Of a DNA stretch of 31,296 bases, positions 2,120-18,150 are shown piece after piece. The notes under the pieces were generated by a model. The model was given only the letters and a program-made list of their open reading frames with translations. It did no database searches and was not told the DNA's origin. Source of the stretch: a virus. Position numbers and translations under genes: made by a program. The DNA lies in the IMG/VR virus record IMGVR_UViG_3300022864_000011, positions 1 to 31,296 of that record; one strand, given 5' to 3'. How positions within the stretch are numbered: position 1 is the stretch's first letter; every line of letters starts with the position of its first letter.

Positions 2120-4725
2120 GCTTCCCTCAATGTTATCTGGATTGTCCCACCCCAGATTTTGCGAACGTTATTAGAGAAGTCCCTAAATAAACTAGGCGGT
2201 TCTACAATAATAAATATCTTATCCATGTTCTTCCATAAAGAACGCATTTCTATCCGCTTAGAGCTTACGGATGCTTCATAAAGCCATGCCAATAAATCAT
2301 CTGGGTTATGGTCTTTAGTTGAACCACCCAATACCCGTTGGTTTCCATGCACCCTTATTCGCATTATCCACTGTCGTTTTACTGGCGTTCTTGCATATCC
2401 CTCTAAAACAGTTGCGGTTAGAACCGGCGGAGTAGCGGGTGTACTTGTTAAAAATCTAAGTCTTATCCTTACCTTAAAAACCTCTCCTAAACTAACCGGA
2501 ACCGTGTACTCTGGACTACTTAAAAATGCCTCTAATGGAAACCAAGTTGAGCTATCGATATATTGATTCTCAAAGTCGTCAACCTGTACTTCTGCGCGTA
2601 TCTCAATTCCAGTTGCTAAGTTTTCCGTCAAACAAGTAAACTCTTTTATGAATTTAGGCAGTCTTGCTGACCCCATATCTATATCGGCTAACTCGATAAC
2701 GCCCTCGGGAGCATAATTTACGTTACTGTCCTCTAATGGATTTAGCGTTCCTTGAGGCCATTCTTGGAAATATAATTCTCCGTTACACTCAATCCACAAT
2801 CGAGGACGTGTCCCAGGATTATCTTGCCAATGAATACTTCTAATTCTCTGTCCTGCCCCAGGAGCGCGGAATATTTCATGCCATGCTTGGTTTCTATCAT
2901 CTCTAAATAAGAGAGAGGAAGTCCCAGAACCAGCGTCTACACAAGCAAACAAACCTACAGGATGAGATGCCATCCAAGCGACTTTTCCTTTCCTTGCTGA
3001 CGGTAATCCCCTTCCCGCATCATAACCAACACTGTCTAACGTTGAACCATACCTGCGTTGTAATGAGAAGTCTGCCCACGAAAAGAATAGAAACTCTTTA
3101 TGTGATAAAGCCGCTTGTCCGTTATTGCTTGTTTTAATAAAGTCTAATCCAACATTCAATCTGTCTGCCCTATCGTTGCTAACAGTGTAAACCCCGTCCC
3201 CTTTGAATGCCATAATTCGTTTATCATAATCTATGACGTTTATAATATCTTGGTTGTCGTTACCTATTTCTATTTCTGTCCCGAATGCAAAATCAGCAGC
3301 TTGCGCTACAGCATTAGACCTGGAAATATCCACATCATCATTTTCAAATCTCCACATCTGCGGGCCGTCCACAGGGTCGTGGAATACATGAAACCCGTCT
3401 GCAAACACAGAGTCGTCGTAATATCTCAGAACAGGTGGTGAAGCACCAAAGTTTATATCTATACTTCTAATTGCATCCGATGCCCCTTGTGCAAAATAAG
3501 AAATATTATTAATCACAGCAACGTCTTTTACTGTACCTAACCCAGTTGTCCCAGAAGCAAAAGCCTGATAAGCATTTCCAGCATAAATAACATACACCGT
3601 ATCTGTCGAGGGAGCGATGTCTAACGCCGGAGAAACGGTAATTGTGTCTGTGGTAGCAACTGTGTCTGTGATAAGGCTATCCTGCCCCTTGCCCGTTCCT
3701 GATACAAACTTTATTCTATATCCATTCCACTGGTCGTCTATCCAAGAACCTTCAAGCCCATTATCAGTATCTATTACCGTAGTGGTTGTCCCACCCGTAG
3801 CTTCTCCTATATCTCCATTCAGATATAAATTGCTTGCACCACCACTCGCTAATTTATCAACCCACAATAACGCCCCATTCATCTCAAATGGAATAAGTTC
3901 TCTTTTTGTGTCAGCGTCAGTGATTCTAAAGAACATCGTATAACCTGCTGTAGCCCACGTAGAGCCGGCGGTAGAAGATTTAGAGCCAGTAGTGCCACTA
4001 TCTACCCCAATTTCCCACCTGTTAGTTTCTCCATCTGTTGAAGCCCCATATACAACTATGTGATATTTAGTGCTAGCAGTCAAATCGCTCGCAGCAGATA
4101 AATCAAAAACCCTCCACTGGCTAATAACATCTGTGATTGTGGTGGTGGTTATTGTCGCAGAAGCACTTGTCACGGCTGCATTAGGTTCGCCGCCGGTATC
4201 TGTATATATCTTTACTGTTAATGTGCCAGGGGAGCCGATTCTGCGAAGCCAAATATAGGCATTGTCTGCCCCAAAGTTAGAACCACCCACTGTGAAATCA
4301 TCCGACATGAATCGGTTGCTTCCAGTAAGGGGTTGCCATGTAAATGCGGCAGCATCTTGTTGTAAGTAACGATAATCTTCTCTCAGTCCTGTAGGCAAAC
4401 GCCACTGGAATGTAGGAAATACTTTTCCTTCTAAGAATGTAAACAAATTTTGGCTATCCCAGAAACGGGTAGGGTCTTGCGAAAAGTCATCAGAACCCCT
4501 GCCCCCTTCCCAAGTCCTTTGCTCAATATGTGACATTCCAGGTTCATAGTCACCAAACTTAGTCCCACCGCCGGTAAACTGAATCGTAGACGGGGTTTGG
4601 GAATGTTCTTGTAACGACCTTACTCCCTGGTGAAGTCTTAGTCCCCATTTATAGCCACTTCTATCTTCTAGACTAAGTTCATGGGTATGGTTTTTTACGC
4701 CAGGATAACATTTTATTGCGGCCAA
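2116..4725 (-). CDS. Large beta-rich tail protein (869 aa), candidate tail nozzle/tubular B
   Basis: The start is TTG at 4723-4725, with an AAGGA SD seven bases upstream; it overlaps the adaptor gene's end. Residues about 140-270 look like a lectin-like sandwich (FTVGGSNFGADNAYIWLRRI ... GYTMFFRITD). Residues 309-380 form a small beta domain beginning ATGGTTTTVIDT. Residues 380-760 consist of repeated short strands with Trp/Asp, as in a beta-propeller. The C-terminus is a mixed region ending WGGTIQITLREA. Size, and the place right after a short adaptor, parallel T7 gp12-type nozzles, so I infer a podovirus-like tail tube or hub. No lysozyme or endosialidase motif is visible. Confidence 0.6.
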   Translation of the reverse strand: MAAIKCYPGVKNHTHELSLEDRSGYKWGLRLHQGVRSLQEHSQTPSTIQFTGGGTKFGDYEPGMSHIEQRTWEGGRGSDDFSQDPTRFWDSQNLFTFLEGKVFPTFQWRLPTGLREDYRYLQQDAAAFTWQPLTGSNRFMSDDFTVGGSNFGADNAYIWLRRIGSPGTLTVKIYTDTGGEPNAAVTSASATITTTTITDVISQWRVFDLSAASDLTASTKYHIVVYGASTDGETNRWEIGVDSGTTGSKSSTAGSTWATAGYTMFFRITDADTKRELIPFEMNGALLWVDKLASGGASNLYLNGDIGEATGGTTTTVIDTDNGLEGSWIDDQWNGYRIKFVSGTGKGQDSLITDTVATTDTITVSPALDIAPSTDTVYVIYAGNAYQAFASGTTGLGTVKDVAVINNISYFAQGASDAIRSIDINFGASPPVLRYYDDSVFADGFHVFHDPVDGPQMWRFENDDVDISRSNAVAQAADFAFGTEIEIGNDNQDIINVIDYDKRIMAFKGDGVYTVSNDRADRLNVGLDFIKTSNNGQAALSHKEFLFFSWADFSLQRRYGSTLDSVGYDAGRGLPSARKGKVAWMASHPVGLFACVDAGSGTSSLLFRDDRNQAWHEIFRAPGAGQRIRSIHWQDNPGTRPRLWIECNGELYFQEWPQGTLNPLEDSNVNYAPEGVIELADIDMGSARLPKFIKEFTCLTENLATGIEIRAEVQVDDFENQYIDSSTWFPLEAFLSSPEYTVPVSLGEVFKVRIRLRFLTSTPATPPVLTATVLEGYARTPVKRQWIMRIRVHGNQRVLGGSTKDHNPDDLLAWLYEASVSSKRIEMRSLWKNMDKIFIIVEPPSLFRDFSNNVRKIWGGTIQITLREA

Positions 4726-5552
4726 CTTAATATCCTTTGGTTTCTAGTCGGTCGCCATATTCTATGGCTTCTCATAAACCTGTCCAGTTTATCGGCCGCT
4801 TTGTTATACCTTTGCTCTAATTCTTCTCCAGCGCCAGCCGTATTTATCTGAAAGTCGATTGCCGCCAATGTGCATACAGCTACAGCTAAACCAGGAAAGA
4901 TAAACTCGCTAACAACATCGTCAAAATCATTCAGGCGGGTATGTGTCCCCATATAAACAACTCTTATATCTCTACCCGATGTAAGTTGTGGGACTAATTC
5001 AAGTGTAGACGCTGAACCAGCAGTGCCAGGAATCAGTCTATAGTGTGGAACGCCTTCCCATAAATTATCGTTAGTGTCACCCGTTTTTCCTTGAAAATCA
5101 ATGGATAGTGGTGGTTTACGTTTCCACGCAACAACGTAATCATATTCTGTCTGATTTGCAACCGTATCAATCGTGGTCGTGTCTGTTTCTGGGACATCTC
5201 CCAAGTCTGCTAGCGCATCATTGCAAATCTCTATCATGTCGTGTAACGGGTAAATATCATCAATGAACCCATACCGATCACCAATGGCCGGAGATGCTGA
5301 AAATACAGTATCTACCGTGAATGTTCCAGTAGTATCATCGTATGCTGATATTCTCTGAAATTCGCCTTGAGGTGCAGTGCCAGCAGTATCACGCACGATA
5401 AACAAAGTGCCTTCTTTCCAGACATCATCTTCCTCTTGTCTATCTATTTGCTTGGTATCAACCACTGTGGTAGTAGTTCCACCTGTAGCTGTAGACACCT
5501 GTATTTGCCCCAATGCTCGTAGGGTTCTTTGAAGTAAATCGCTAAAAATCAT
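4713..5552 (-). CDS. Head-tail adaptor / tail tubular A-like protein (279 aa)
   Basis: The N-terminal helix (MIFSDLLQRTLRALGQIQV) and C-terminal helices (DVVSEFIFPGLAVAVCTLAA, then AGEELEQRYNKAADKLDRFM) flank a central domain, the layout of gp6/gp11-type adaptors that join the portal to the tail. Residues 23-98 are an inserted beta domain starting ATGGTTTTVVDT, nearly the same as one in the neighbouring 869-residue protein. The ATG at 5552 overlaps the previous TGA as TGATG; an in-frame GTG one codon upstream is less likely. There is no clear SD, so translational coupling is assumed. Assigned by architecture and order. Confidence 0.65.
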   Translation of the reverse strand: MIFSDLLQRTLRALGQIQVSTATGGTTTTVVDTKQIDRQEEDDVWKEGTLFIVRDTAGTAPQGEFQRISAYDDTTGTFTVDTVFSASPAIGDRYGFIDDIYPLHDMIEICNDALADLGDVPETDTTTIDTVANQTEYDYVVAWKRKPPLSIDFQGKTGDTNDNLWEGVPHYRLIPGTAGSASTLELVPQLTSGRDIRVVYMGTHTRLNDFDDVVSEFIFPGLAVAVCTLAAIDFQINTAGAGEELEQRYNKAADKLDRFMRSHRIWRPTRNQRILSWPQ

Positions 5553-5833
5553 CACTCATACCATACGGTGCATGCAGCGTTTGTTCCTGTAATATCAGCA
5601 TAGATGCCCAATAAACACTTTATGCCACCGAGTTTTGCTAAGTCTACGAAAGAGGTTGTCCCGTTCAGTGCCGATATTTGAATTGCTTTTGTGCCAGAGG
5701 CAGCCGAGGTGTTATCGTACAAAACAATATCAGCATCGTTAGTGGGCGCAGTCAAAAGAACTGCCATTATGGTTGCTGGTTTCGCTTTTACAACCGCATC
5801 CGCAGAAACCTGTTCTACATTAAATTTATTCAT
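5552..5833 (-). CDS. Small beta-rich virion protein (93 aa)
   Basis: Starts at ATG 5831-5833 with an AAGGAG SD six bases upstream. The sequence (VSADAVVKAKPATIMAVLLT ... DIVLYDNTSAASGTKAIQIS ... CTVWYE) has the strand pattern of small phage head-surface or fibre-like proteins related to 'ADAVVSTKPGrl..vlvt'-type families. The C-terminus ends in a short strand CTVWYE. It lies between the glycosyltransferase-like genes and the adaptor. A decoration or tail-completion role is likely but unproven. Confidence 0.65.
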   Translation of the reverse strand: MNKFNVEQVSADAVVKAKPATIMAVLLTAPTNDADIVLYDNTSAASGTKAIQISALNGTTSFVDLAKLGGIKCLLGIYADITGTNAACTVWYE

Positions 5834-5951: not shown

Positions 5952-6683
5952 TCAGACATACGAAACTCCAATATGTGCGCATGACATATCCCAATCGACA
6001 TGAATATCAAACCCTAAATCATACACCTTCTTACATAGCACCAAATCTTCTCCACCTGAATTCATGTCGTAAGGACTTTCTCCCAATGCTTCTGCTAAAT
6101 CTCGTCTCATTAATAAACAACCAGCGCCTAGCCCGTCAACCCTTTCTAGACCTTTCCCTGGGATGTGTTTGCGCCGGTAATTGTTTATTCCATCTTCTGT
6201 GTTGATATAATCATATACCACTGGTTGATAAATCTTCTCGTTTCCTATACTTTCTGGATCTTTGTGGTGATACCACCCACCCACTAAGGACTTGTCGTAT
6301 TTCAAGAGCTTGTCGACAAACCAGGGAGGCACTAACACATCGCTATCTACCATCACTAACCAATCGGTACTTGTTTCCTTCAAAAAACTGTTATGAACTA
6401 AATTTCTTGCCGCTGGTAAATATGTGCTTTGAGTAGTTATCAACGAATCCCACGGCATAATATTCAAGTTTGTAATGCTGTTCACGAAGAACTTAGAAAA
6501 CATCAACTCGTCCATCGGAAATCCGAAACAAATCGGGTCTGAGCGCAACTTCAATTCAACGGTATTATGCTTTGTTGTTCCTTTTGCATAACTTACTGTA
6601 TTACGACTCTTCGGTGCTTTCCCATCCAAGCCGTCTACTACGGATTGATACTTCCCTTTTCGCGTTCTTTTCCTCTTTGACAT
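5952..6683 (-). CDS. GT-A fold glycosyltransferase-like protein (family 2 type), 243 aa
   Basis: The core has the family-2 pattern. QSTYLPAARNLVHNSFLKE is followed by WLVMVDSDVLVPPWFVDKLL, with the metal-binding DSD at residues 113-115. Next comes an acceptor-side VDGLGAGCLLMRRDL (182-196), then GGEDLVLCKKVYDLG with E212-D213, as in the catalytic ED motif. Residues 1-40 are a Lys/Arg-rich tail. ATG 6681-6683 has AGGAG five bases upstream; the in-frame ATG at 6707 lacks one, so I chose the shorter form. It is the last of four sugar-related genes between capsid and tail genes. It probably transfers a sugar to a virion protein or host glycan; donor and target unknown. Confidence 0.75.
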   Translation of the reverse strand: MSKRKRTRKGKYQSVVDGLDGKAPKSRNTVSYAKGTTKHNTVELKLRSDPICFGFPMDELMFSKFFVNSITNLNIMPWDSLITTQSTYLPAARNLVHNSFLKETSTDWLVMVDSDVLVPPWFVDKLLKYDKSLVGGWYHHKDPESIGNEKIYQPVVYDYINTEDGINNYRRKHIPGKGLERVDGLGAGCLLMRRDLAEALGESPYDMNSGGEDLVLCKKVYDLGFDIHVDWDMSCAHIGVSYV

Positions 6684-6780
6684 AAGCTCCTCTTCCACAC
6701 ATCTCACAAAATTGAGAGTGTTCTAAAAACTCTGAAAATCTATCTTCTTCTATTAGCGTTTTTCCTATGTAACACTGCAC
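6601..6780 (-). CDS. Overlapping 59-residue ORF with a CxxC knuckle
   Basis: A frame opened by GTG at 6778-6780, with AAGGA five bases upstream, spans the 81-base gap between two sugar-related genes and runs 83 bases into the next gene. It reads VQCYIGKTLIEEDRFSEFLE, then HSQFCEMCGRGAYV, then a charged tail ending in TAA at 6601-6603. The first 35 residues look like real protein, with Cys3, Cys25 and Cys28. The part overlapping the downstream gene is low-complexity in both frames. It could be a small zinc-knuckle protein or the remnant of one. Not certain. Confidence 0.45.
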   Translation of the reverse strand: MQCYIGKTLIEEDRFSEFLEHSQFCEMCGRGAYVKEEKNAKREVSIRSRRLGWESTEES

Positions 6781-7505
6781 CGTAATCCTTCTTTCTCCAA
6801 CAACCCACCAGAATGGTCAGTCCACTTTAGCCCGTCACTGAGCATAACATCGTCGGCTGTCTTCATATATTCTGCGGTTTCTACCCAAAACCACATTGTC
6901 TTAAGTCCTTTATAATCAATAAACATATCCTCTGTAAAAAACCTAGTTTGTTCATAGACTGGATATTTGTACCAGTGGTGCGTGTCCTGAAGGCATAAAT
7001 CAAATCCGATTGTATGAACTTCGTCACACCCTAATATTCCAGCAAGATGAATCGCTTGTAAAGCTACAGTTCCTACCCTAACTGCCCCTCTCATCCCCTC
7101 TGAGTGTTTCAATAATGAACCGTTGATAAAGCCTTCCTCGTATCTCCTGAAGCTGTACCGGTGTAAATCTTCTGCTTCTACCCCGATCCTATCAATTGTT
7201 AGTACACCTATCTTGTCAGCGAGATATTGATAACTTTTTGAATTCACTAACCTTTGTTTTGCTCCAGTAGTCTGGAACATTTCCATAATCTCAACGTATC
7301 GTTGTTCGCCTTTCTTTGACATCTTTACTGGGTAATTCATGTTCTCGGTACACAGCCAGTAATCAAGTTTCTTTATCTTTTGGTTGACACCATTTACACC
7401 AATAACAACATCGGCTTTTATATCTCTCCAGTCTTTGGCACTTGGGCCACCTAGCACTACTAGAGCCTTACCACCTTCAAATCTATTGCGATGTTCTCTT
7501 ATCAT
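6765..7505 (-). CDS. DUF115/MptE-like sugar-related protein (246 aa)
   Basis: Residues 14-26 (ALVVLGGPSAKDW) match the nucleotide-binding 'GxGPS' loop of the DUF115/MptE-like and sialyltransferase-like group. VVIGVNGVNQKIKKLDYWLC (33-52) matches its second strand, and VGTVALQAIHLAGILGCDEV with IGFD (144-169) matches the conserved 'aLqlA..lG...I.liG.D' helix-strand. In bacteria such proteins accompany flagellin or surface glycosylation genes. It overlaps the upstream gene by four bases (ATGA). The likely role is a CMP-sugar or other nucleotide-sugar transferase or processing step. The substrate cannot be read from sequence. Confidence 0.65.
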   Translation of the reverse strand: MIREHRNRFEGGKALVVLGGPSAKDWRDIKADVVIGVNGVNQKIKKLDYWLCTENMNYPVKMSKKGEQRYVEIMEMFQTTGAKQRLVNSKSYQYLADKIGVLTIDRIGVEAEDLHRYSFRRYEEGFINGSLLKHSEGMRGAVRVGTVALQAIHLAGILGCDEVHTIGFDLCLQDTHHWYKYPVYEQTRFFTEDMFIDYKGLKTMWFWVETAEYMKTADDVMLSDGLKWTDHSGGLLEKEGLRCSVT

Positions 7506-8407
7506 AGATAGCTTTCCAATATGCCCACAAACTTTTCGCTACTAAACTGACTTCCTATATACGTTTCTCTCCAGTCAGCAACTTCTTTATTGTCTTTTCC
7601 GGCGGCGTTAAGTAATTCTCTAGCACTTCCTTCTGCCATAAAATCCAGCGGAAACATCAATTCATCTTTGTATTTGTCCCAAGAAGCAACCGTCTTTACA
7701 TTTTTAGGGTTGTTACCGCTTATCGGAACCTTTTCTTCTGACATAAACATCGCTGGTTTTCCTCTAGCAACCGCCAGGTATCCCATGTTTTGATGAGATA
7801 TAATCACGTCAGATTCGTCTATTTCTTTGGTGGACTGGTCTGGTTGTCCCTGAACATAAGTAACCCCAGGAACCTCCCATAACCCGTTCCACTCAAGATA
7901 ATGTAAGTACCTAACAGTTAATTCAATATCTTTTGCTTCTAAGAGTTTTTTGAATACGTCCGCATTTGTAAGTCGCTCTCTTGTTGTCATAAAGCCGTTT
8001 CCGTTTACATGGATAGGCGCATACAAAACTTTCTTAGGGTGTTCACATGGCTGAAAATCTTTCAGCTTACAGAATGTCCAACCAACTGCGTGGATAGGTT
8101 TCTCAAATCCATAACGTCTCGGAACATTCATCCCGCCTTTGCCCGTGGTAAACACTGCTGTTACGTGCGGGTGTGGTTCATACATACCGTCCCACTGTAA
8201 AACAGGTCTGCCTGTGTGGGGATAAAGAAAAACATTCTCTCCGGTTGTTTGGTAGTGGTCGATATATCTTCGTCTGGATAATACATCAATGTCTATTAGA
8301 AGGAATGAACTTGCATCCATATTGTCTGCATGATGGTGTCCTGCATCAACTAGTGCTTTTATGTACACATCGCCTTTATTCTGGTGGTTATAGCAATAGA
8401 AATTCAT
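7502..8407 (-). CDS. GT-B-like transferase resembling CDP-glycerol glycerophosphotransferases (301 aa)
   Basis: The second half carries the GT-B C-terminal pattern of TagF/TagB-like proteins: KKVLYAPIHVNGNGF (125-139, compare 'ilYAPTwR'), a strand-helix with DIELTVRYLHY, and then the donor-site segment ESDVIISHQNMGYLAVARGK (198-217, compare 'sDvlItDySS..fe.l..gkP'), followed by PAMFM. The N-terminal half has weaker Rossmann-like strands and several His residues. It overlaps both neighbours by four bases. It is probably a glycosyl- or glycerophosphate-type transferase acting on a surface or virion acceptor. The usual TDYS motif is altered (ISHQN), so specificity is uncertain. Confidence 0.6.
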   Translation of the reverse strand: MNFYCYNHQNKGDVYIKALVDAGHHHADNMDASSFLLIDIDVLSRRRYIDHYQTTGENVFLYPHTGRPVLQWDGMYEPHPHVTAVFTTGKGGMNVPRRYGFEKPIHAVGWTFCKLKDFQPCEHPKKVLYAPIHVNGNGFMTTRERLTNADVFKKLLEAKDIELTVRYLHYLEWNGLWEVPGVTYVQGQPDQSTKEIDESDVIISHQNMGYLAVARGKPAMFMSEEKVPISGNNPKNVKTVASWDKYKDELMFPLDFMAEGSARELLNAAGKDNKEVADWRETYIGSQFSSEKFVGILESYL

Positions 8408-9021
8408 AGTGGCATCCAGGGAATAATTCTGTCTGGCAGTCTAGTAAGCGGAGCAATGTTATACATCTCTGCACCAATTCCTTCTCGTATCTTTTTGTAT
8501 CCTTCTGCCCATTTATCTATTTTTCCTATACCAGGTTGTGCTTCATCAACTCCCCAAAACTTCTCTCTGTTATCAACTGAGTGGTCTATCACAGTAAGTA
8601 TCTTTGAAAAGCCCATATAGTCTGCGATCTGCATCTGAACGTGCATGATGCAGTGATAGTTTATTCCTGTTTCAAGGTTTCCTGGCATCTCTACTTCTTT
8701 ATGATCCCAGAAATAAGTATCTTCTCCAATCCACATTTCTAACTTCGGTGAGGGGAAGAACTTGATTGAACTCATCCGATCTACTTCTTCTCTGAATTCT
8801 ACGAATACTCTTGTGTCTACTGCTGTGTAGTAGTTTGGGGTAAATCCTTTGAAGATAGTATTTGCTCCAATCGTGATATTTTTCTGTAGAAACTCTAACG
8901 GGATTTCTGCTAAAGACGGCCCGTTTCCTAAAAGTAAACACATTTCATCTTTGTGTATGTTTTTAAAGTGCTGAAGGGGGAGATTGCTCTCCCCCTCATA
9001 GTTATTATTACAAGTATTCAA
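8404..9021 (-). CDS. DUF115-like protein with GNGPSL motif (205 aa, TTG start)
   Basis: Residues 16-37 (LQHFKNIHK ... CLLLGNGPSL) match the N-terminal pattern of DUF115/glycosyltransferase-29/42-like proteins. ITIGANTIFKGFTPNYYTAV and the later MQIADYMGFSKILTVIDH fit the same fold. It resembles the 6765-7505 product in plan. The open frame begins with TTG at 9019-9021, inside the end of the upstream gene and without a clear SD. The first ATG (M27, 8943) would remove the conserved FKNIHK stretch, so I keep TTG. A strong hairpin (8976-8995) lies within the first codons. First gene of the sugar-related block. Confidence 0.6.
   Translation of the reverse strand: MNTCNNNYEGESNLPLQHFKNIHKDEMCLLLGNGPSLAEIPLEFLQKNITIGANTIFKGFTPNYYTAVDTRVFVEFREEVDRMSSIKFFPSPKLEMWIGEDTYFWDHKEVEMPGNLETGINYHCIMHVQMQIADYMGFSKILTVIDHSVDNREKFWGVDEAQPGIGKIDKWAEGYKKIREGIGAEMYNIAPLTRLPDRIIPWMPL
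8976..8995 (-). terminator. Strong GC hairpin downstream of capsid genes (attenuator candidate)
   Basis: Read on the minus strand, GGGGGAGA-GCAA-TCTCCCCC is a perfect eight-pair stem with a GCAA tetraloop, 13 bases past the stop of the decoration-like gene. No T-run follows (TTCAGCACTTT), so it is not a classical Rho-independent terminator. It may attenuate or process transcripts between the abundant capsid genes and the sugar-related genes. It also overlaps the start region of the next gene. Confidence 0.45.
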
Positions 9022-9400
9022 TCTGTACTCGGTACTTTCCTACCTGAGTAGTTGCTATACCTGTGTGGCGTACCGCCAGAATTCCATCTGCAAGCACAAC
9101 GCCAGCACCTTCAACGATGGTTGCATCTGTGTAGGTTCCAACAGATTTAGCCTCTTCTAAGTCAGTAGCAGCAACGATCTGCGCTCCGCCTACAGCGGTT
9201 CCTACTTTGAAATTAGCTGCTTCCATGCTTGAGTCGGATGCTTCGGTGTAAACTGCTCTGACTCCAACAACTTTGATTTCGCCAGGAGGCGCCCAAACGT
9301 CGTCGTCAGTAGTAGTAGAGCCGTTGTCGATGTTGAATTCTTTTGAGCGCCAGATTTTGATTTCTTCTGGTTTTGGGCCAGGAAGGTAACGTTTAACCAT
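9008..9400 (-). CDS. Probable head decoration or capsid-accessory protein (130 aa)
   Basis: Lies 11 bases after the major capsid gene and has a GGAGG SD. The N-terminal 25 residues are basic and Pro-rich (VKRYLPGPKPEEIKIWRSKE). The rest alternates short strands (IKVVGVRAVYTE, ANFKVGTAVGG, ILAVRHTGIATTQVGKYRVQ) without Cys or catalytic motifs. Small beta-sandwich proteins directly after the capsid gene are usually decoration or head-stabilising proteins, and I infer that here. A fibre or other surface role is also possible. Confidence 0.6.
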   Translation of the reverse strand: MVKRYLPGPKPEEIKIWRSKEFNIDNGSTTTDDDVWAPPGEIKVVGVRAVYTEASDSSMEAANFKVGTAVGGAQIVAATDLEEAKSVGTYTDATIVEGAGVVLADGILAVRHTGIATTQVGKYRVQIEYL

Positions 9401-9411
9401 TGTAAACCTCC

Positions 9412-10551
9412 TTATGCTGTATTAAGACCGCTGATATAGGCGTGAGCCTTCTCAAACGATAGCACGAACCCATACTCTCCAACCACTTGTCCTGAGTCAG
9501 CATCACCAGTCTTAGCTAATCGTTCATAGAAGAATGGGTCAATTGTGATATACCCGCAATAACTTCTATCAATTAGATAAATTGAGGCTGCTTTACAGTG
9601 TCGGTCTACGATTACTTGGATAGGATTTCCACCAATCGGGTCAATCAGAGTGCTAATCAAGTTTCCACCAACAGATTCGGTTCTCTCTGTACGGATAAAA
9701 CCTTCATAAATCTGATTAAGTCGTCTTTGCTGGAAAGTGCTACAGAAAAGTGCATCTGGCATACCGCCAGCGTTGTAGCAATCCTCCAATGCGTCGTCGA
9801 TGTGGTTTCTGGTCAAGTCAACCGAACCAGCGGCAGTAGCGTTAGTTGAGATGTATTGCTCAAACCCACCAGCCCCACGCCCTTGAGAGTGAGAACTAGA
9901 ACCAGATTGCCTAATCCCATAGTACGGGACTTTGTTAAGCATCATGATTAATTCATCCATCTTCTTATCAATGTAGTAATCCTCTAACTCAGTAATCCCA
10001 TAAAGAGGGAACAACTGGTCAGAACGAGACAATTCGATAGTCCGTTGGAAAATCTGTGAGTTGTTGGTTGTGCTGGTTGCTTCGGTAGTTGGTGAGTCGT
10101 CAGCATCAGTGCCTTCTAGTCGCGCATTAGACACAATGGTTACAGTGGTGCTGTCGGTGTGAGTCGCTTGCGTTCCGCCCCTGTCACGAACTAATGTCAG
10201 TGTGCCGGTGGCTGTAGCTACTGCTGCAACCCAGATGAATTCTGCGTCGATTAAAATAACATCGCCAACATTGTAAATTTCAGGGGTCGTTACCAAACAA
10301 GTTGTTGCGGTTGAAGATGAGTGAAGTCCACCTGCGGCAGTCAATGAGTCAGAAGTTCCTACATAAGTATCTTCAAGCCACTCGTATTGACGATGTGGTT
10401 TGTTGACAAAGCGGAACTTGCTCATATTGTCTAGCCCAAGCGCATCAATAGTCCGACGTTCAAAGACGTCAGCTTTTTGAATTCGATCTGAAACCATCCT
10501 CTTTTGGGGGACAGTATTATCATAACTGTCTACCCGTCCGTGAATAGTCAT
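9412..10551 (-). CDS. Major capsid protein, SU10/DUF5309 type HK97 fold (379 aa)
   Basis: The protein follows the DUF5309 'SU10 major capsid protein' pattern. The N-terminal arm (residues 1-60) ends in a DTYVGTSD segment. A beta insertion at about 68-148 contains NVGDVILIDAEFIWVAAV and LTLVRDRGGTQATH. Then come the spine-helix region (ITELEDYYIDKKMDELIMML), the A-domain (MPDALFCSTFQQRRLNQIYE), and a C-terminal GEYGFVLSFEKAHAYISGL. The start ATG has AAGGAG. It follows a scaffold gene, the standard order. Here the scaffold is separate, and no capsid protease is visible in the window. Confidence 0.9.
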   Translation of the reverse strand: MTIHGRVDSYDNTVPQKRMVSDRIQKADVFERRTIDALGLDNMSKFRFVNKPHRQYEWLEDTYVGTSDSLTAAGGLHSSSTATTCLVTTPEIYNVGDVILIDAEFIWVAAVATATGTLTLVRDRGGTQATHTDSTTVTIVSNARLEGTDADDSPTTEATSTTNNSQIFQRTIELSRSDQLFPLYGITELEDYYIDKKMDELIMMLNKVPYYGIRQSGSSSHSQGRGAGGFEQYISTNATAAGSVDLTRNHIDDALEDCYNAGGMPDALFCSTFQQRRLNQIYEGFIRTERTESVGGNLISTLIDPIGGNPIQVIVDRHCKAASIYLIDRSYCGYITIDPFFYERLAKTGDADSGQVVGEYGFVLSFEKAHAYISGLNTA

Positions 10552-10580: not shown

Positions 10581-11270
10581 TCAATCAAATTCCCATTCGA
10601 TTTTGTCCCAGGCATTAGCGTGTTTTTTACGCGCCTCTGACTGGATACGATTTGCCTTATTGGTATTGCCGCTATTAAGGGCTTCTGTGTAGTTTTTAAT
10701 ATATTCTTGCAATTCCGATAAATCTGCGTCCACTGATGGGTTCCCCGTCCCTGCCGGAATTGTAACGCCGGCAGCAGGAGGCGGAGGAGCATTCCCTAGT
10801 TTTCCGACTTCGATAGCAAAACCGATTGTGTCTGTTGAGAACTGCGATGCAAGCTCTACTATCTTTGGGTCGGATGGATTAAGATTTGCCTTTCTAATGA
10901 TCTCTGCGTAGTCCACTGAGGTCTGAGATTGGGGAGTGGCTTCTACCGTTCCCTCAAGTTGGTCTGTGAGATAATTCACCTTTTCTTGCAAGTCCATCAC
11001 TGCTAGTTTCTCTTGCAGGTCTGGTGTTACCTCAATTCCCAGGGAATTCAATTTAGTAGTCATTGTGTTTTCAAACTTGTCTGCTCTGGATTGTCGTCCT
11101 TTTACTTGTTTAGACAAGTCCGTCACCACACCAACTAACTTTTCAAAATCCGCTTTACTCACCGAACTGGGCTGAGAAAGTGGCTGAACCTCTTCGCTCG
11201 CAGAAAGGTTTTGCTGTGCCACAGCATTGCCCTCCGGTTGAGTCTGAGTGCCTTCCTCATTTTCATTCAT
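10581..11270 (-). CDS. Scaffolding protein (229 aa)
   Basis: Directly upstream of the capsid gene. It is acidic and Gln-rich at the N-terminus (residues 1-45), with long helical/coiled-coil segments (about 40-115: FEKLVGVVTDLSKQVKGRQ, then LQEKLAVMDLQEKVNYLTDQ), a Pro/Gly-rich linker (about 165-180) and a basic, helical C-terminus ending WDKIEWEFD. The charge pattern, with a basic C-terminal helix, is typical of phage scaffolds that bind capsid subunits and leave or are degraded after assembly. No protease motif is fused to it. The ATG has an AGGAG SD at a rather long 11-base spacing. Confidence 0.8.
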   Translation of the reverse strand: MNENEEGTQTQPEGNAVAQQNLSASEEVQPLSQPSSVSKADFEKLVGVVTDLSKQVKGRQSRADKFENTMTTKLNSLGIEVTPDLQEKLAVMDLQEKVNYLTDQLEGTVEATPQSQTSVDYAEIIRKANLNPSDPKIVELASQFSTDTIGFAIEVGKLGNAPPPPAAGVTIPAGTGNPSVDADLSELQEYIKNYTEALNSGNTNKANRIQSEARKKHANAWDKIEWEFD

Positions 11271-11500: not shown

Positions 11501-11520
11501 GTTAGAACGCAAGTTCTAAC
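11501..11520. repeat. Perfect inverted repeat at the 3' end of the 1795-residue gene
   Basis: GTTAGAAC-GCAA-GTTCTAAC is an eight-pair stem with a four-base loop that includes the TAG stop of the upstream gene (11516-11518). On the minus strand it is followed by AAAAAACC, not Ts, so it is not an intrinsic terminator. It could protect or process the mRNA 3' end. Confidence 0.5.
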
Positions 11521-14500
11521 GACCGATTGAACTGGCTACTTGGTTGATTATTGCGTCCTCTTCTATACCTGTTTGTGCTGTTATCGCATCTAATTTGTTA
11601 GTCACGAATGTATCTAGCGGGTCTCCGTCGATAATAAAGTCTACTATCTGATTGAATGTAGGCTCGCCAAGCGACGCTATTAACTCTTGCGGTGTTACAT
11701 TTGGCTCTGCGCCAAAAGCCTCTTGTAGTGCTTGCGGAGACGCGTATGTGGGCGGGTTTTCTGACAAATATGGTGCTACACTGGGGTTTCTTTCTAGGAA
11801 GTCCCACTTCCAATCCCAGTAAGCCTTTAAGTCAGGGTTCTGTCTAAGATATGTTTTCCTAGCACCGCCCTTATCCATTTTGTAATATAAGTTTTGTTTC
11901 TCAAAATAGTCTGGAAACGACTGTGATCTATAGTCGTAGAAAAATTGAGCAACTTGCCCTATCTCAGGAGGTGCAAAATTAATAGGAACTGCATCATCTC
12001 CCAAAGAACCAGGGGGATCTCCACCCATCATAGTTAGCCACGATGAAAGCATTTCTACCGGTAGGCTATCTGTGGATCGAGTTTCATTGTTCAAAAAAGC
12101 ATTTACAAAGTCATCGCCAAGTCGTTCTCTTACCTCTCTCTTATCTAAACTCGTCAATCCATTATATGTGTCCCACATCTGGTCTACTACAAACAACCTA
12201 GTTCTCTCTTCTGGTGTCTTAAATAAACCAATACGCGCCTCGTACTCAGGATACTTTTCTATAAATCTACCGTAGGCTTGGTGATCTCCGGCCTCATACT
12301 TCTCATACATTTTTTCATAAAGCTCTTTCTGTTTTCTAACATTTTCTTCGCCAGGAGGATACGACTTTGTAGGAATACCCGTAATTGAACCAAGAGAATT
12401 GATTCCTGACTCTATCAATGAGCGTCTTTTCGCCTCTTCGTATAATGGCCCAGCACGTTCTATGGTAGCTCTCTGCAAAGCGTCAATCGTAACAGGAATA
12501 CCATCTATCACTTCCTTATCAGACAACATATTCACCATCATTCTATCTATACGATAATCGTCCCATTCGCTAAATGGCGCAAGCCCTATAGACTGCCGTA
12601 TCTTTCCACCAATACCGAGAACGGGCATATCGTTAGTGTCTACACCAAAAAGACCAGCAATCCCTCTTAGAGACCTCCCTAATGGTGTAAAAGCACCTTC
12701 TTGTACTTGTTTGCCCTGTGACTCGTTATACGCCCACATAATTGGAGCATGAGGACTAAGAAGCATAGAACCTAGGTCAAAAGCGTTCATTCTACCTTCC
12801 GTATCGTCTTGTCTTGCTAATCCAACCGCCCTTTCCCAGGCAGCACCAGCGTGCGCATTTATAGCTTCTGTATATTCGTCTTGTGTTATTTGTCCGTCTC
12901 CTAACAACTCTTCCAACACCCTCTCGGCTGCCCCTTCATCTCTACGTTCTTGTCCTAAATATTCTTCGTATGGTCTAGTAAAGTTATCTATAGGAATAGC
13001 AACACCCATAGGATTAACAAACAACTCGTCACCTATCCAATCACCGAATATTTTTGGCAAGAATGGGGTTTTTATTCTTAAGTGTCCTTTTAGTCTTTGG
13101 GGAAATCCAGACTCGGGTCTAAAACCCGTGTCAGTAAACTTCTTTAGTCTAAGTATATTTGCTACTGCGTGTGTTCGGTCTACTGTACGCAATGCCCAAT
13201 TCCATGCTGTGTGCATAGTCCAGAACTCATAAGGAACTATAGTCTGTAACCAGTTATCCATATTTGTTGTTCTGCTGTAATTGAGTAACGCCGAATCTCT
13301 GGTATATTCTGCATATTTCAAAGCACCTAAACGTAAATCGCTCATTTGCCCTTGAACATGGGATACATAATTCTTTACGCCTTTCTGTGCTTCTGGTGCT
13401 AAGTCAACAAATTTAAGTGGCTTGTCTCTTGCTATTTCTAGCGCACTTTCTTTTAGTGCGTTAAGAGCAGGTATACCTCTGTTGTAATATAATTCATCAT
13501 AGGCTGACCCAGCGGAAAGCTCTCTTTTTACAATAGAGTGAAAGTCTGGTATGTGTACTTTTGATATTCCCTCTGGAACTTCTTCCGCTACTCTTGCAGT
13601 ATCTACAACTCCCTCTACCGCCCGTGCTGTATCGGAAACATCGTCTAATGCTTCTCCTGCCTGAAAAGCCTCTTCTTGTGTTTTGAGCTTATATGTCGAT
13701 TGCGCTTTTCTGCTTCCCTCAACAGCGGCTAATGCTTTTTGTTCCTCTTGCCAAAGGTCTGAATAATTTTTCATCCTCTGTTTCCAGAACACTTGATACG
13801 CATCTTCAATCTCAGAGGGGCTTAACCCGTCTAACGACTTTCTAAAACCAGCGACATACTCTCTGTCACTCAATCGCATATCAGCAATTTGATCTCTTGT
13901 GTGCTTAAAAAGCAATCTTTGATTTTCTGGCAAAGCCTCTGTTAAAAGGTCATCTATCTCTCTGGCAATTCTATCTTCTGTTGCAATGGCGTTTGTGTAT
14001 TTTGTGTCGAGTTCATCAAGTATCGCCCGATATGTCTTTTTAGGAGTTTTGCCTGCTATTTTGGCATCGCTATAGTTATTCCACAAACGTTTTCTCGTGT
14101 TATAAAAACCCTTCCACTCTTTACGGATTTCTTTGAAGTTAGAAACAACTCTTCTTCCTTGATTCCCTCCATATACCTTAGATACTTTATTTACGATTTT
14201 TTCTTGCTTATCCCAAAATCTACCCCAATAGTTATCTGCATCCTGAAAATATTTTCTCCAGGCGATGTCTGCTATAGCTGGGTCTGTACCTTTCTTGATG
14301 TCAGCGACAATGCTATTTGTCTCAATAGCATGCCTACTACTAGTCGCGTATGTACTATCTGATAAGTCAGACCATAATCCAGTAAAAGCTCCTGGCCCTT
14401 CCGTTTTTGCCCTCGAAGCAGCTTGATCAACCATTACCTCAACGGCTCTATCTACCATTTCTGATATGTGCTTCTCCATTTTATTAGATGTCTGTAACAT

Positions 14501-16903
14501 AACATCGTTTAGTGCTGTTTCGCCTTTCTTTGCGGCAGCTACTATATTATCTTGAATAGAGAATAAGAAATCATCTCCAAGTATATCGCCAAGTTCTACT
14601 CCTAGTTTTTTCTCAGCACCCCTTACAATATTAGGCATATTCAGAGCAAGATTGTCACTCTCAAAAACCTTTGAGATTAAATCCTTTTCGTTCATTACGC
14701 CTTCTAAAACAGTTTCGATTATTTTAGACTGGTCTGTCCCCAACACACCGGCAAGTGCCTTATCATAATCCGCAACAGACGATAATCCTACTCCTGTCTT
14801 TGCGTATTTTCCCCAAAACTTTGTATATCCCAAATATAGAGAACGTTTCGACGCACCACGTTCAATCTCTTGCGCCCAGATACCAAAGTCCCACTTTTTC
14901 TCAGCGCCAACCAGGTCGGATACAGAGAAATCTCTAATTTTATCAGCTACCTTACCTAACCACCCCCTCTCTCCACGAACAATTTCATATATAGATTGTT
15001 GGCCTCTTTGAAGTGCTTCTGCCGCGGCAGAAGAAGCTTTCCTGACACCCTCTACCGTCTGTTGAGCTAATCCGGCAGCGGTAAACGCTTCCTCTGCTCT
15101 AGCAGGAATGAAGCCTAACGTGTCGTAAAACTTTTCGACTTCATTAATAGACACAACACCAAAGTTTCCGTCAGCAATAGAAGTGGCTACATTATTAACG
15201 AGGTTTTTTATGGGATATGCGGGGTTGAGCCTAAGATATGCTAGAGATTCTGCTGCTTTTACTGTATCAGCAATTTGTTTCACAAAACCCTGTTGCTTTA
15301 CTCCATACTGAATTACTGCCTGTTTTGATAAATTGTCAATCATAGAATTCAATACTGTTCCCTTAAAGAAGTCCACATCAAATAAATCAACGCCGTCTCC
15401 AAGTGACTTTGTTATGCTTTCTAGGACTTCGGCGCTAAGTCCAGCCTTTCCATTAATCTTAAGAATATCCTCTATGCCAAGACGTTGTTCCTCAGTCATA
15501 GCTTCGGCTAATCGACTATATATTTGTTGCCCCTCACCATTCTTAAGTTGGTGAAATATTTTTGGTGCAGAGTCCCCTAAAACGCCAGTAAGCATTTCAA
15601 GTAACGGTCTTTCAAACTCTCCTAACTTTTCCCATGTGCGCAACAAGCTCTCTCCATCAGAAATTGATTTTTTCATCAACCCCTGAAATATCCTTCCTGT
15701 TGGCGTAGCTACCATGTGTCCTAAATCGCCGCCGATAGTACCATCCGATGCTCTTCTCAGTATTCGCATAAACTCAAGTGGGTCATCACTCTTTGCTAGT
15801 GCGTATACAGAAAAATGATTTATAATGTTGGTGAAAAGTTCTGATGCTCTAGCCTGGGAAGTAAGAGATAATGGATTATATCTTCGTAAAGCCTTTTGAA
15901 ATCCTTTCAGTTCATCAAATGGGGTATCTAGTCCCTTTAAGTTTCCAGAATACTGTAATAGTTTTTGTTCTGCCCAAGACATTTTTTCAAATGTTTCTAT
16001 GTTTTGTGTAAGCTCAGCTAACTTTTCGGTAAGCGTTATATTCTCAGGAAGATCATCAATAATATTCCTTAGTTTAGCAATGGCTTCTAGCTTTTCTATA
16101 TCATCAGCCTTACTAGCTATTTTTTCTAGTTTGGCTAAATCTTTTAAGTTATCAGCCTGTTTTGCTAACTTTGTAAGGTCTTCAAAATCACCAGTTATTC
16201 TTGCTAAATCACTCGGTAGAGATTTTGTCGTAGCGGCTTTTATTATTTTTGTATTTAGAAACTCAATAGGTTTTACATACTTTCCCACAATAAACAGGGG
16301 GTCTCCTACTATATGTTGGAATACGTCCTGTATCTGAGAACGAATAGCCAATGCCCCCAAATCATCCATCATGCTTCCGCGAACATCTTCTAAGGACTCA
16401 CCGTTTATTATTCTTCGCCTTGCAGTAAGTATTCCCTCCATACCAGGTAAATCGTCTGGTACAGAAAACTTAACTCCATCATCGTCTATTCTTATCTCTG
16501 GAATTCTTGCGAAATCTGACGTTAAAGAACCGGCTTGCCATGCAGCAGACAGGTTAGTTTTTAGCTCGTTTAGCTTTTCGTCATCACCTAAAGCATCTAA
16601 GTATTGCGCCCCCAACCCGAATGTTCTTTCTGCGCCTTCTGCTAAGATGTCTAACTTCTGTAACGCCTTTCCTGCCCACCCCTCATTGAAATCAGCTAGC
16701 ACCTTACCGAATCCAGTATCAGCTATCCCTGGAAGTTTACCCATGATCCATTTTTCGCTACGAGTTAGCTTTTCGTAGTTCGGGAGTTCATTAATATCAC
16801 CCGAGCGGGGTTCGTATCCACCTTCTACACTATACTTAGCCCTTCTAGCTGCATCGGGATCAACGGTTCCGCCAGTAATTTTTAATTTTGAAAAGTCTAC
16901 CAT
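11516..16903 (-). CDS. Giant probable internal virion/ejection protein (1795 aa)
   Basis: A very long, mostly helical protein between the LysM protein and the scaffold. The N-terminus (MVDFSKLKITGG) is followed by long charged helices (about residues 235-335 are Lys/Glu/Leu-rich and coiled-coil-like). An amphipathic stretch contains LRLNPAYPIKNLVNNVATSI, and an aromatic segment near the middle-to-late part reads LQTIVPYEFWTMHTAWNWAL, a possible membrane-active region. The C-terminal third is Pro/Gly-containing and ends near DAIINQVASSIGR. Size, helix content and location fit podovirus internal or ejection proteins, but no nuclease, polymerase or lysozyme motif is visible. ATG 16903 overlaps the previous stop as TAATG; the in-frame TTG at 16921 is rejected. 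Confidence 0.6.
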   Translation of the reverse strand: MVDFSKLKITGGTVDPDAARRAKYSVEGGYEPRSGDINELPNYEKLTRSEKWIMGKLPGIADTGFGKVLADFNEGWAGKALQKLDILAEGAERTFGLGAQYLDALGDDEKLNELKTNLSAAWQAGSLTSDFARIPEIRIDDDGVKFSVPDDLPGMEGILTARRRIINGESLEDVRGSMMDDLGALAIRSQIQDVFQHIVGDPLFIVGKYVKPIEFLNTKIIKAATTKSLPSDLARITGDFEDLTKLAKQADNLKDLAKLEKIASKADDIEKLEAIAKLRNIIDDLPENITLTEKLAELTQNIETFEKMSWAEQKLLQYSGNLKGLDTPFDELKGFQKALRRYNPLSLTSQARASELFTNIINHFSVYALAKSDDPLEFMRILRRASDGTIGGDLGHMVATPTGRIFQGLMKKSISDGESLLRTWEKLGEFERPLLEMLTGVLGDSAPKIFHQLKNGEGQQIYSRLAEAMTEEQRLGIEDILKINGKAGLSAEVLESITKSLGDGVDLFDVDFFKGTVLNSMIDNLSKQAVIQYGVKQQGFVKQIADTVKAAESLAYLRLNPAYPIKNLVNNVATSIADGNFGVVSINEVEKFYDTLGFIPARAEEAFTAAGLAQQTVEGVRKASSAAAEALQRGQQSIYEIVRGERGWLGKVADKIRDFSVSDLVGAEKKWDFGIWAQEIERGASKRSLYLGYTKFWGKYAKTGVGLSSVADYDKALAGVLGTDQSKIIETVLEGVMNEKDLISKVFESDNLALNMPNIVRGAEKKLGVELGDILGDDFLFSIQDNIVAAAKKGETALNDVMLQTSNKMEKHISEMVDRAVEVMVDQAASRAKTEGPGAFTGLWSDLSDSTYATSSRHAIETNSIVADIKKGTDPAIADIAWRKYFQDADNYWGRFWDKQEKIVNKVSKVYGGNQGRRVVSNFKEIRKEWKGFYNTRKRLWNNYSDAKIAGKTPKKTYRAILDELDTKYTNAIATEDRIAREIDDLLTEALPENQRLLFKHTRDQIADMRLSDREYVAGFRKSLDGLSPSEIEDAYQVFWKQRMKNYSDLWQEEQKALAAVEGSRKAQSTYKLKTQEEAFQAGEALDDVSDTARAVEGVVDTARVAEEVPEGISKVHIPDFHSIVKRELSAGSAYDELYYNRGIPALNALKESALEIARDKPLKFVDLAPEAQKGVKNYVSHVQGQMSDLRLGALKYAEYTRDSALLNYSRTTNMDNWLQTIVPYEFWTMHTAWNWALRTVDRTHAVANILRLKKFTDTGFRPESGFPQRLKGHLRIKTPFLPKIFGDWIGDELFVNPMGVAIPIDNFTRPYEEYLGQERRDEGAAERVLEELLGDGQITQDEYTEAINAHAGAAWERAVGLARQDDTEGRMNAFDLGSMLLSPHAPIMWAYNESQGKQVQEGAFTPLGRSLRGIAGLFGVDTNDMPVLGIGGKIRQSIGLAPFSEWDDYRIDRMMVNMLSDKEVIDGIPVTIDALQRATIERAGPLYEEAKRRSLIESGINSLGSITGIPTKSYPPGEENVRKQKELYEKMYEKYEAGDHQAYGRFIEKYPEYEARIGLFKTPEERTRLFVVDQMWDTYNGLTSLDKREVRERLGDDFVNAFLNNETRSTDSLPVEMLSSWLTMMGGDPPGSLGDDAVPINFAPPEIGQVAQFFYDYRSQSFPDYFEKQNLYYKMDKGGARKTYLRQNPDLKAYWDWKWDFLERNPSVAPYLSENPPTYASPQALQEAFGAEPNVTPQELIASLGEPTFNQIVDFIIDGDPLDTFVTNKLDAITAQTGIEEDAIINQVASSIGR

Positions 16904-18150
16904 TATAGTTTTATTCTCCAACTAACAAGTCCAGGCGCGTAACTATATCCACCCTGACTCGTACCACCGCTATAGTAGTTACCACTACCACTGCGTCTCC
17001 TAGAACCCCCTCCTGTTGTAAGCAACGGATTAGTTGACATGGACATATCTTGTCCGCCAGCTTCATATACACTGTTCTCTAACTTATTCCATACACCTTC
17101 GGCTGTTTCCTCATAACCCATGACGGCCATCCATTCCTGAATCGAATCATACTGATCTCTCCAAATAGGTGCTAGGTCTAAAGCGACGCGGTTTGTTAAT
17201 GTAACTGGAAGCAAACTTCTATCTCCAGTTTCAGCCGCGTCTAAAATTCGTTTTGTGGTAGCCTCTGTTTGTACAACATTCCTGCGTTCAACTTGTTCAT
17301 TTCTATAAAGGTCTCTTACTCTTTGGTCTTGAGGGGTAAGTTTCTCTTGTGGTGTTGGTGGCAAAGTAGGGGGAGTACCTACTGGTATAGGATTAAACCC
17401 TTGCGCTGCCCCTAATATGTTTGTTGTGGTAGGAGCAAATTCTGGTTTAGGTGTTGGCTTAAACCCCTGTGTTGCACCTAATACATTTTTTTCTGTGGGG
17501 GCAAAACCTATTTTCGGGAGTTCGGTTGGTTTGAATCCCTGCAACGCGCCCAATCTAGCATTTTCTGTTGTTGGAAGTGAGATGCTCTGATTTTGTGATT
17601 GTAGTTTTCCAATAAGGTCTACTTGCTGCTGTCCCGTTAACCCCTGAATATCTGACGCTGTTGCCAGGTTAGATGCTGCCTGGGAAGAAGATGCCTGAAC
17701 TTGTGCTTGTGTCGCTTGGCTTCCAGTTAACTGTGTCCCAAATTTTGAAGTTAGTAGGTCTCCTCCTCCGGCCAACAAATTGCTTGCAGACTGTTGGGAT
17801 TGAGTAAGCGCCGCACTGGTTCCTAATGGAACATCAAGTCCCATTACTTGTTCTGTTCCTAATCCCTGAGTAGCCCCCTCCGTAACAATAGAACCCTCTC
17901 GATTAAGAGCTAAATTAGGGCCTCCCTCAACACCGGTAGAGGAAATACCTTGTCCTGCAAAAAACGCCAGCCCCCCTGTGCGTCCTTGTTCTTTTATTCG
18001 TCTTAAATTTACTCTATATCTTACTCCGGCACGAGGGGTTCCGATTTTGCGTTGTAACGCAGCGACTTCTCTGGCGTTAGTTATTCCAAGCCGTTTTGCA
18101 ATAGTCCAAATATTATCGCCCGATTTGGCTCTGACTCTCTTGACTGCCAT
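16903..18150 (-). CDS. LysM-domain virion protein with internal repeats (415 aa)
   Basis: Residues about 4-50 form a LysM-like module (KRVRAKSGDNIWTIAKRLGI ... GVRYRVNLRRI), which normally binds peptidoglycan or chitin-type glycans. Residues 80-190 are Gln/Ser/Ala-rich and disordered. Residues about 195-260 contain three repeats built on LGA(L/T/A)QGF(K/N)P and GFAPT/EFAPT. A helical part (about 275-360) and a Gly/Ser/Arg-rich tail follow. ATG 18150 has AGGAG seven bases upstream. Sitting between portal and the giant protein, it probably travels in the particle and engages cell wall during entry. No hydrolase domain is seen, so it is likely a binder rather than an enzyme. Confidence 0.7.
   Translation of the reverse strand: MAVKRVRAKSGDNIWTIAKRLGITNAREVAALQRKIGTPRAGVRYRVNLRRIKEQGRTGGLAFFAGQGISSTGVEGGPNLALNREGSIVTEGATQGLGTEQVMGLDVPLGTSAALTQSQQSASNLLAGGGDLLTSKFGTQLTGSQATQAQVQASSSQAASNLATASDIQGLTGQQQVDLIGKLQSQNQSISLPTTENARLGALQGFKPTELPKIGFAPTEKNVLGATQGFKPTPKPEFAPTTTNILGAAQGFNPIPVGTPPTLPPTPQEKLTPQDQRVRDLYRNEQVERRNVVQTEATTKRILDAAETGDRSLLPVTLTNRVALDLAPIWRDQYDSIQEWMAVMGYEETAEGVWNKLENSVYEAGGQDMSMSTNPLLTTGGGSRRRSGSGNYYSGGTSQGGYSYAPGLVSWRIKL
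17390..17575 (-). repeat. Three tandem ~20-22-residue protein repeats in the LysM protein
   Basis: Within the coding frame, the motif LGALQGFKPTELPKIGFAPT recurs as LGATQGFKPTPKPEFAPT and LGAAQGFNPIPVGTPPT. The DNA copies have diverged at synonymous positions, which suggests an old duplication kept by selection for the protein repeat. Confidence 0.6.

Follow-up and report, generated by a model that had tools for sequence, protein, structure and literature searches.

The window, by which we mean the entire stretch of 31,296 nucleotides analysed here (IMG/VR virus record IMGVR_UViG_3300022864_000011), carries in its virion operon a block of genes for cytosolic enzymes of the glycosyltransferase type, which probably modify the phage's own head proteins. 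As many as four enzymes are encoded, and no fewer than two of them are clearly sugar-transferase-like. The four open reading frames and their coordinates agree with the preliminary description; they lie on the minus strand, with a head accessory gene on one side and an adaptor gene on the other:

9412-10551, minus strand: SU10-type major capsid protein (MCP), candidate acceptor; PF17236 (SU10_MCP) E 3.8e-50, phrog_1328 (major head protein) E 4e-47
9008-9400, minus strand: head accessory (decoration-like) protein, 130 aa, after the MCP gene; candidate acceptor
8404-9021, minus strand: DUF115/GT42-like protein a (D115a), 205 aa; its TTG start is uncertain
7502-8407, minus strand: orphan protein, 301 aa; homologues in phages L070, L080, and L099
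6765-7505, minus strand: DUF115/MptE-like protein b (D115b), 246 aa; PF01973 E 6e-5, under the cut-off
5952-6707, minus strand: GT-A-type glycosyltransferase, 251 aa; PHROG matches and invariant motifs
5552-5833, minus strand: 93-aa protein between GT-A and adaptor; homologues in the same place in L003, L007, and L010
4713-5555, minus strand: adaptor-like protein that closes the slot; named "adaptor" from its position

The block had been described as four overlapping genes, which applies to those of D115a, the orphan, and D115b (4 bp each between 8404-9021 and 7502-8407 and between 7502-8407 and 6765-7505) but not to the GT-A gene, which is separated from its neighbour by 57 bp. The decoration-like gene and that of D115a overlap by 14 bp, and the adaptor-like gene keeps its position in all relatives in which the region is intact. 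The PHROG label "Rz-like spanin" for the decoration-like protein was rejected, because the protein and its homologues are located behind the MCP. No membrane segments were detected in the four proteins of the block (highest 19-residue hydropathy 0.5-1.5), which include no membrane-anchored transferase or flippase of the kind expected in a serotype-conversion (gtr-type) cluster.

The proposed GT-A identity of 5952-6707 is corroborated by matches to phrog_34859 (glycosyltransferase; E 3.7e-7) and phrog_1574 (E 6.7e-10); the score against the Pfam family PF00535 is below the curated GT2 cut-off (15.4 vs. 23.3 bits). R101, D121/D123, E220/D221, and H245 are invariant across 13 homologues; the last three represent a GT2-like arrangement of a DxD metal/nucleotide motif, a downstream ED, and a C-terminal His. 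Judged from its sequence, the protein is therefore transferase-like and has conserved, putatively catalytic motifs. Translation probably begins with the ATG at 6683, which follows AGAGGAG and is also the start in relatives. The protein belongs to the same similarity group as the phage GT-A proteins of phrog_1574, phrog_34859, and phrog_12406; however, the first of these families is filed under unknown function and the other two under moron/auxiliary genes, whereas the GT-A of the window has a stable place in the head module.

The DUF115/MptE type proposed for D115a is supported by both fold and profile. Although the protein itself remains under the Pfam cut-off for PF01973 (20.0 vs. 34.6 bits), its homologue in L010 clears it (39.3 bits). 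The predicted structure (pLDDT 63) resembles the central domain of Maf and Cst-II: when the candidates returned by Foldseek were ranked with VIA-align, Maf (5mu5) reached Z 11.8 over 159 residues, followed by Cst-I/II (about 10) and MptE (8sd5; 9.8), whereas Foldseek alone listed Rossmann enzymes, none of them significant. The family profile matches GT42 sialyltransferases (E 4e-7) but no MptE entry. Model and profile together assign D115a to the transferase-like proteins with a predicted sialyltransferase (GT42)/Maf/MptE fold. The residue before the motif F-[WY]-G, which may have a catalytic role, is Lys154 in the window but His in 17 of 26 homologues and Arg in 5. A phmmer match to the receptor Kit (E 3e-4) was attributed to chance, as Kit belongs to another fold class and is absent from the matches of the family profile.

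The same type had been proposed for D115b, where it is hinted at by a match to PF01973 (E 6e-5; 23.3 bits vs. a cut-off of 34.6). Profile comparison of D115b with D115a yielded a probability of 7%; a homologue with 47% identity and the same partners alongside is present in L070. Matches of D115b to kallistatin were dismissed as chance. The assignment of the orphan as a TagF-like GT-B enzyme could not be confirmed: the protein lacks matches in Pfam, PHROG, NCBIfam, and PDB, and a Pfam search up to E 10 returned nothing, including the TagF-like CDP-glycerol transferase family. Searches against plasmids and phages gave no match, and among about 800 genomes of two phyla there were only chance-level matches, two of which were examined and fell in unrelated proteins. 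Its homologues were obtained through the DUF115 search, and the profile built from them matched no PDB chain and no convincing family; the single-sequence structure model (pLDDT 34) was unusable. Nevertheless, many positions of the orphan are invariant across homologues from unrelated phages, and these homologues are located behind capsid or decoration genes in L070, L080, and L099. The orphan adds an uncharacterised protein family to those that follow capsid genes.

Ten of the 11 phages with a related MCP carry the GT-A gene in the interval from MCP to adaptor; in L035, it is immediately behind the MCP, and the 23.9-kb record of L003 lacks it. In the sequences compared, GT-A identity tracks MCP identity (r 0.84, permutation p <=0.001), as expected of any vertically inherited pair; the corresponding value for MCP and adaptor (r 0.19) may be low in part because sequences of 28% identity align poorly. 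The block is not a single unit but consists of GT-A as a core head gene and of D115a, D115b, and the orphan as accessory genes. The related prediction that the genes are not scattered in relatives holds only in part, since one relative has three further DUF115 genes upstream of the terminase. Homologues of the decoration-like gene immediately precede D115 in L006, L070, and L097. In the set defined by MCP and GT-A, decoration protein and D115 co-occur (3/3 vs. 1/8, Fisher p 0.024; a small sample that includes the window); L070 and L097 stem from the D115 search and provide no independent support for this count. The Ser+Thr content of the MCP (18%) was rejected as evidence for an acceptor, because it points to no site and because a similar MCP occurs in L003, a phage lacking GT-A.

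Distant GT-A homologues follow the MCP in five other phages, L013, Mel-JY34, ctvy9321, ctyzp037, and ct2t2046. A gene order comparable to that of the accessory genes recurs in phages with unrelated capsids. L070, whose capsid is unrelated to that of the window, has the order decoration-DUF115-DUF115-orphan-adaptor, and in L080 and L099, also with unrelated capsids, the orphan immediately follows the MCP. This pattern raises the possibility, which we consider somewhat short of an even chance, of a portable capsid-sugar module. In this view, a decoration protein, its own DUF115/GT42-like transferases, and a transferase family not previously described travelled together between phages of unrelated capsid types and repeatedly entered the interval from capsid to head-tail adaptor.

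Virion decoration, already favoured in the preliminary description, is now the best-supported reading, based on the placement behind capsid or decoration genes both in vertical relatives and in phages with unrelated capsids. The activity of the enzymes, the sugar they use, the protein that receives it, and any benefit to the phage are inferred. GT-A, inherited together with the capsid gene, would most likely move a sugar from a host nucleotide-sugar onto a head protein common to all relatives, probably the MCP. The DUF115/GT42-like proteins and the orphan would be accessory and variable, and they would extend or change the glycan or act on the adjacent decoration protein. Several observations speak against modification of head proteins, namely the missing GT-A in L003, Lys154 in D115a, the lack of a known family for the orphan, the absence of a CMP-type nucleotide-sugar gene, and the location of GT-A relatives in large cyanophages away from the capsid gene, in some cases near tail genes.

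Many phage glycosyltransferases act on host surface polymers, and the enzymes might, late in infection, alter such polymers (LPS, teichoic acid, S-layer glycan) and thereby exclude other phages or free the progeny, with the late operon providing only the timing. Two GT-A relatives are filed in PHROGs as moron/host-takeover genes, and in one relative, a glycosidase-like protein containing an S-layer homology domain is encoded nearby. However, this explanation is unlikely, given that the four proteins have no membrane segment, that an integrase is present in only 2 of 9 records, and that it accounts neither for the position of these genes right after a capsid or decoration gene in phages whose capsids are unrelated nor for the tracking of the MCP. 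Glycosylation of phage DNA bases by GT-A and its partners is highly improbable. Although phage glycosyltransferases that hypermodify DNA are known (cited in PMC12619734), a thymidylate synthase/dCMP hydroxymethylase-type gene is present in none of the 9 records (which may be incomplete), whereas 9 of 14 control genomes were positive; moreover, the genes sit in the head module, and the substrates of DUF115/GT42 relatives are glycans and proteins. Virion decoration is favoured over both DNA and host-polymer modification because of the repeated placement, the lack of membrane segments, and the lack of a thymidylate-synthase-type gene.

It is also rather doubtful that GT-A is the only true glycosyltransferase and that the DUF115 proteins and the orphan have another chemistry (e.g., as pyrophosphokinase or in binding) or are degenerate, which would leave a single sugar step. 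The similarity of the D115a model to the MptE pyrophosphokinase, the Lys at the usual His position, and the orphan's lack of a family are in line with this explanation, but the D115 profile favours GT42 over MptE by sequence, the reading frames are intact and tightly coupled, and the orphan, with its invariant positions in unrelated phages, is accompanied by GT2 and O-methyltransferase genes in L080.

Virion glycosylation of mycobacteriophages is reportedly the subject of a 2023 article by Freeman and colleagues in Cell Host Microbe. Glycans on the capsid and tail tube of mycobacteriophages are cited in PMC12619734, so that the block of the window would be a variant of a phenomenon already reported. 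The likeness lies in phage-encoded glycosyltransferases, represented here by the predicted GT-A, and in virion proteins (capsid, tail tube) as proposed acceptors; however, glycans were reported on mycobacteriophage particles, whereas those of the phage of the window are predicted. Moreover, the glycosyltransferase genes of Maravista are located close to the genome's 3' end (PMC11256854), and those of the window between the capsid and adaptor genes. Flagellin is a target of O-glycosylation by Maf (pfam01973; PMC11339370). D115a shares with Maf/PF01973 and the GT42 enzymes Cst-I/II the predicted fold, the profile match, and the motif GNGPSL, but the DUF115 proteins of the window are stand-alone (205-246 aa) and lack the N- and C-terminal domains of Maf, D115a differs from most homologues in its Lys, and the window encodes neither a flagellin nor the synthetase for CMP-sugars.

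Few phages are reported to have glycosylated virions, and a gene order that unrelated uncultured phages share would allow such glycosylation to be predicted from sequence. It would also single out capsid and decoration proteins as candidate acceptors and would name candidate enzymes. The idea is testable in the Microcystis phage Mel-JY34, which has a listed host and the same order of MCP and GT-A.

The virion operon of this single IMG/VR virus record (31,296 bases) lies on the minus strand and comprises, in order of transcription:

20033-21625, minus strand, terminase (PHROG, E 1e-49)
18274-20040, minus strand, portal-position protein, assigned by position
11516-16921, minus strand, protein of 1801 aa, preceding the scaffold gene
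10581-11270, minus strand, scaffold-position protein, assigned by position
9412-10551, minus strand, SU10-type major capsid protein (MCP)
9008-9400, minus strand, head accessory protein of 130 aa
8404-9021 (D115a), 7502-8407 (orphan), 6765-7505 (D115b) and 5952-6707 (GT-A), minus strand, four-gene block following 9008-9400
after the block and before the adaptor-like gene, minus strand, 93-aa protein
4713-5555, minus strand, adaptor-like protein

Overlaps of 4 bp join the first three block genes, and one of 14 bp joins the block to the accessory gene; the GT-A gene, whose true start is probably the ATG at 6683, is separated from its block neighbor by 57 bp. The PHROGs label "Rz-like spanin" (E 2e-7) of the head accessory family is probably a mislabel. 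Several relatives align with the 1801-aa protein only from about residue 1140 on, and the remainder differs strongly.

By sequence, the product of 5952-6707 is GT-A-like. It matches a PHROGs glycosyltransferase (E 3.7e-7) and phrog_1574 (E 6.7e-10), several Pfam GT families match it and its homologs with scores below the cut-off, and R101, D121/D123, E220/D221, and H245 are invariant across 13 homologs. In VIA-align, a model of D115a built with five homologs (mean pLDDT 63) scores highest against Maf (5mu5; Z 11.8), next against the sialyltransferases Cst-I/II (about 10), and then against 8sd5, an MptE-type pyrophosphokinase from archaea (9.8). Sequence matches of the D115a family profile include GT42 sialyltransferases (E 4e-7 and 2e-5), with pyrophosphokinases absent from them, and the D115a homolog in the related viral contig L010 exceeds the PF01973 cut-off. 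Maf enzymes O-glycosylate flagellin with nonulosonic acids, and their central domain (pfam01973) resembles Cst-II (PMC11339370). Because D115a of the window has Lys154 at a position occupied by His in most homologs, its activity is uncertain. D115b appears to be a weaker DUF115 member (PF01973, E 6e-5; profile comparison E 0.005, yet with a probability of just 7%). The orphan matched nothing in Pfam, NCBIfam, PHROGs, or PDB, which leaves its earlier TagF-like assignment unproven and the gene in an unassigned family.

Searches with MCP and GT-A recovered eight viral contigs (L002, L003, L004, L006, L007, L010, L011, and L014) and two contigs in genome bins (L034 and L035). The latter were binned into Polynucleobacter and Anaerolinea genomes; the binning is perhaps wrong and is not host evidence. 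In the window and in every relative except L003 (nine of ten), GT-A (42–50% identical) occupies a slot bounded by the adaptor on one side and by the MCP or a head accessory gene on the other; the entire 23.9-kb record of L003 has no GT-A. GT-A directly follows the MCP in L035. L011 is broken by the contig end, and its opposite end resumes with MCP, GT-A, and adaptor, with a protein of 209 aa encoded between the first two and one of 97 aa between the last two, so the contig is probably circular or permuted. Identities of MCP and GT-A are correlated (r 0.84, permutation p <=0.001; MCP versus adaptor, r 0.19), and L014+L034+L035 as well as L002+L006+L007 group together in both trees, in which some forks are weakly supported.

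D115a homologs adjoin GT-A only in L002, L006, and L010 (there in reversed order), the orphan is absent from all nine related-capsid contigs searched, and no further DUF115 gene resembling D115b was observed beside GT-A in these relatives. The four genes are therefore not one unit: GT-A is the core, and the other three are accessory. The glycosyltransferase island of the preliminary description largely stands, except for its treatment as a single block and the TagF-like assignment. In L014, a methyltransferase gene (PF13578, E 4e-8) adjoins GT-A. The contig of L002 carries one DUF115 gene beside GT-A and also three tandem DUF115/GT42-like genes upstream of the terminase, away from the head block (L031:2844-4869). 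Between GT-A and adaptor, L002 encodes a glycosidase-like protein (15407-16309; PF11790, E 4e-21) that also contains an S-layer homology domain (E 1e-6). The same slot around GT-A is taken in L004 (8990-9958, 11254-12414) and L010 (11195-12190) by genes for a beta-helix protein (PF13229) and for one of carbohydrate-binding/laminin-G-like type (PF02018, PF13385).

Among more distant phages, GT-A homologs of about 25% identity follow the MCP (21–22% identical, where measured) in L013, Mel-JY34, ctvy9321, ctyzp037, and ct2t2046. No transferase is annotated behind the MCP in seven phages with related MCPs, including LUZ24, so the slot is fixed and its occupation by the GT-A gene optional. GT-A-related genes of large cyanophages are located elsewhere.

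The accessory genes recur in phages with unrelated capsids. In L070, a 39-kb contig reached through a DUF115 search, one fused gene encodes capsid and prohead protease (PF03420, E 6e-12; E 3e-21 for the PHROG protease and only 0.003 for the PHROG major head protein), followed by a homolog of the head accessory (decoration) protein, D115a, D115b (47% identical), the orphan (34%), and a SU10-type adaptor (PF24175, E 2e-12). In L097, the decoration homolog immediately precedes D115. In L080, the orphan directly follows the MCP (phrog_422, E 7e-80) and precedes genes of the O-methyltransferase (PF13578, E 9e-25) and GT2 (PF00535, E 7e-10) types, after which comes the adaptor (phrog_541, E 5e-26); a DUF115 gene adjoins a major tail protein (phrog_820, E 8e-10). 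In L099, the orphan lies 13 bp behind an HK97-type MCP (PF05065, E 1.6e-26). The orphan thus occurs behind four different capsid types (window, L070, L080, and L099), which is not easily explained by shared head-module ancestry alone, so the simplest interpretation is a link to capsid or decoration proteins. This recurrence of orphan and DUF115 genes strengthens the original interpretation of virion decoration. GIY-YIG-like genes, homing endonuclease-like by eye, lie beside the transferase genes of both L010 (13969-14628) and L080 (3814-4419), which are unrelated phages.

Activity, donors, acceptors, and benefit of the block are putative. Most likely, the enzymes would be cytosolic, as none of the four block proteins has a membrane segment, and would modify head proteins before these assemble or while they do so, using host nucleotide sugars, since no CMP-sugar synthetase is encoded. 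The MCP, which is the head protein common to all GT-A-bearing relatives, is the probable target of GT-A; the accessory enzymes may further modify the glycan or act on the decoration protein, the recurrent companion of D115. The lack of membrane segments also disfavors a role in serotype conversion, as does the presence of an integrase in only two of nine perhaps incomplete records. Glycosylation of DNA bases is likewise disfavored, since the same number of records, again perhaps incomplete, contains no PF00303 gene. Glycosylation of virion proteins has precedent: capsid and tail-tube subunits of mycobacteriophages carry glycans at their C-termini, as reported by Freeman et al. 2023 (via PMC12619734 and PMC11256854). 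No account of the present gene order was found in the part of the literature covered. Outside the virion operon, the window encodes an Imm5-like putative immunity protein (25557-26138; PF21805, E 4e-10) and a DUF7666 protein (26840-27478).
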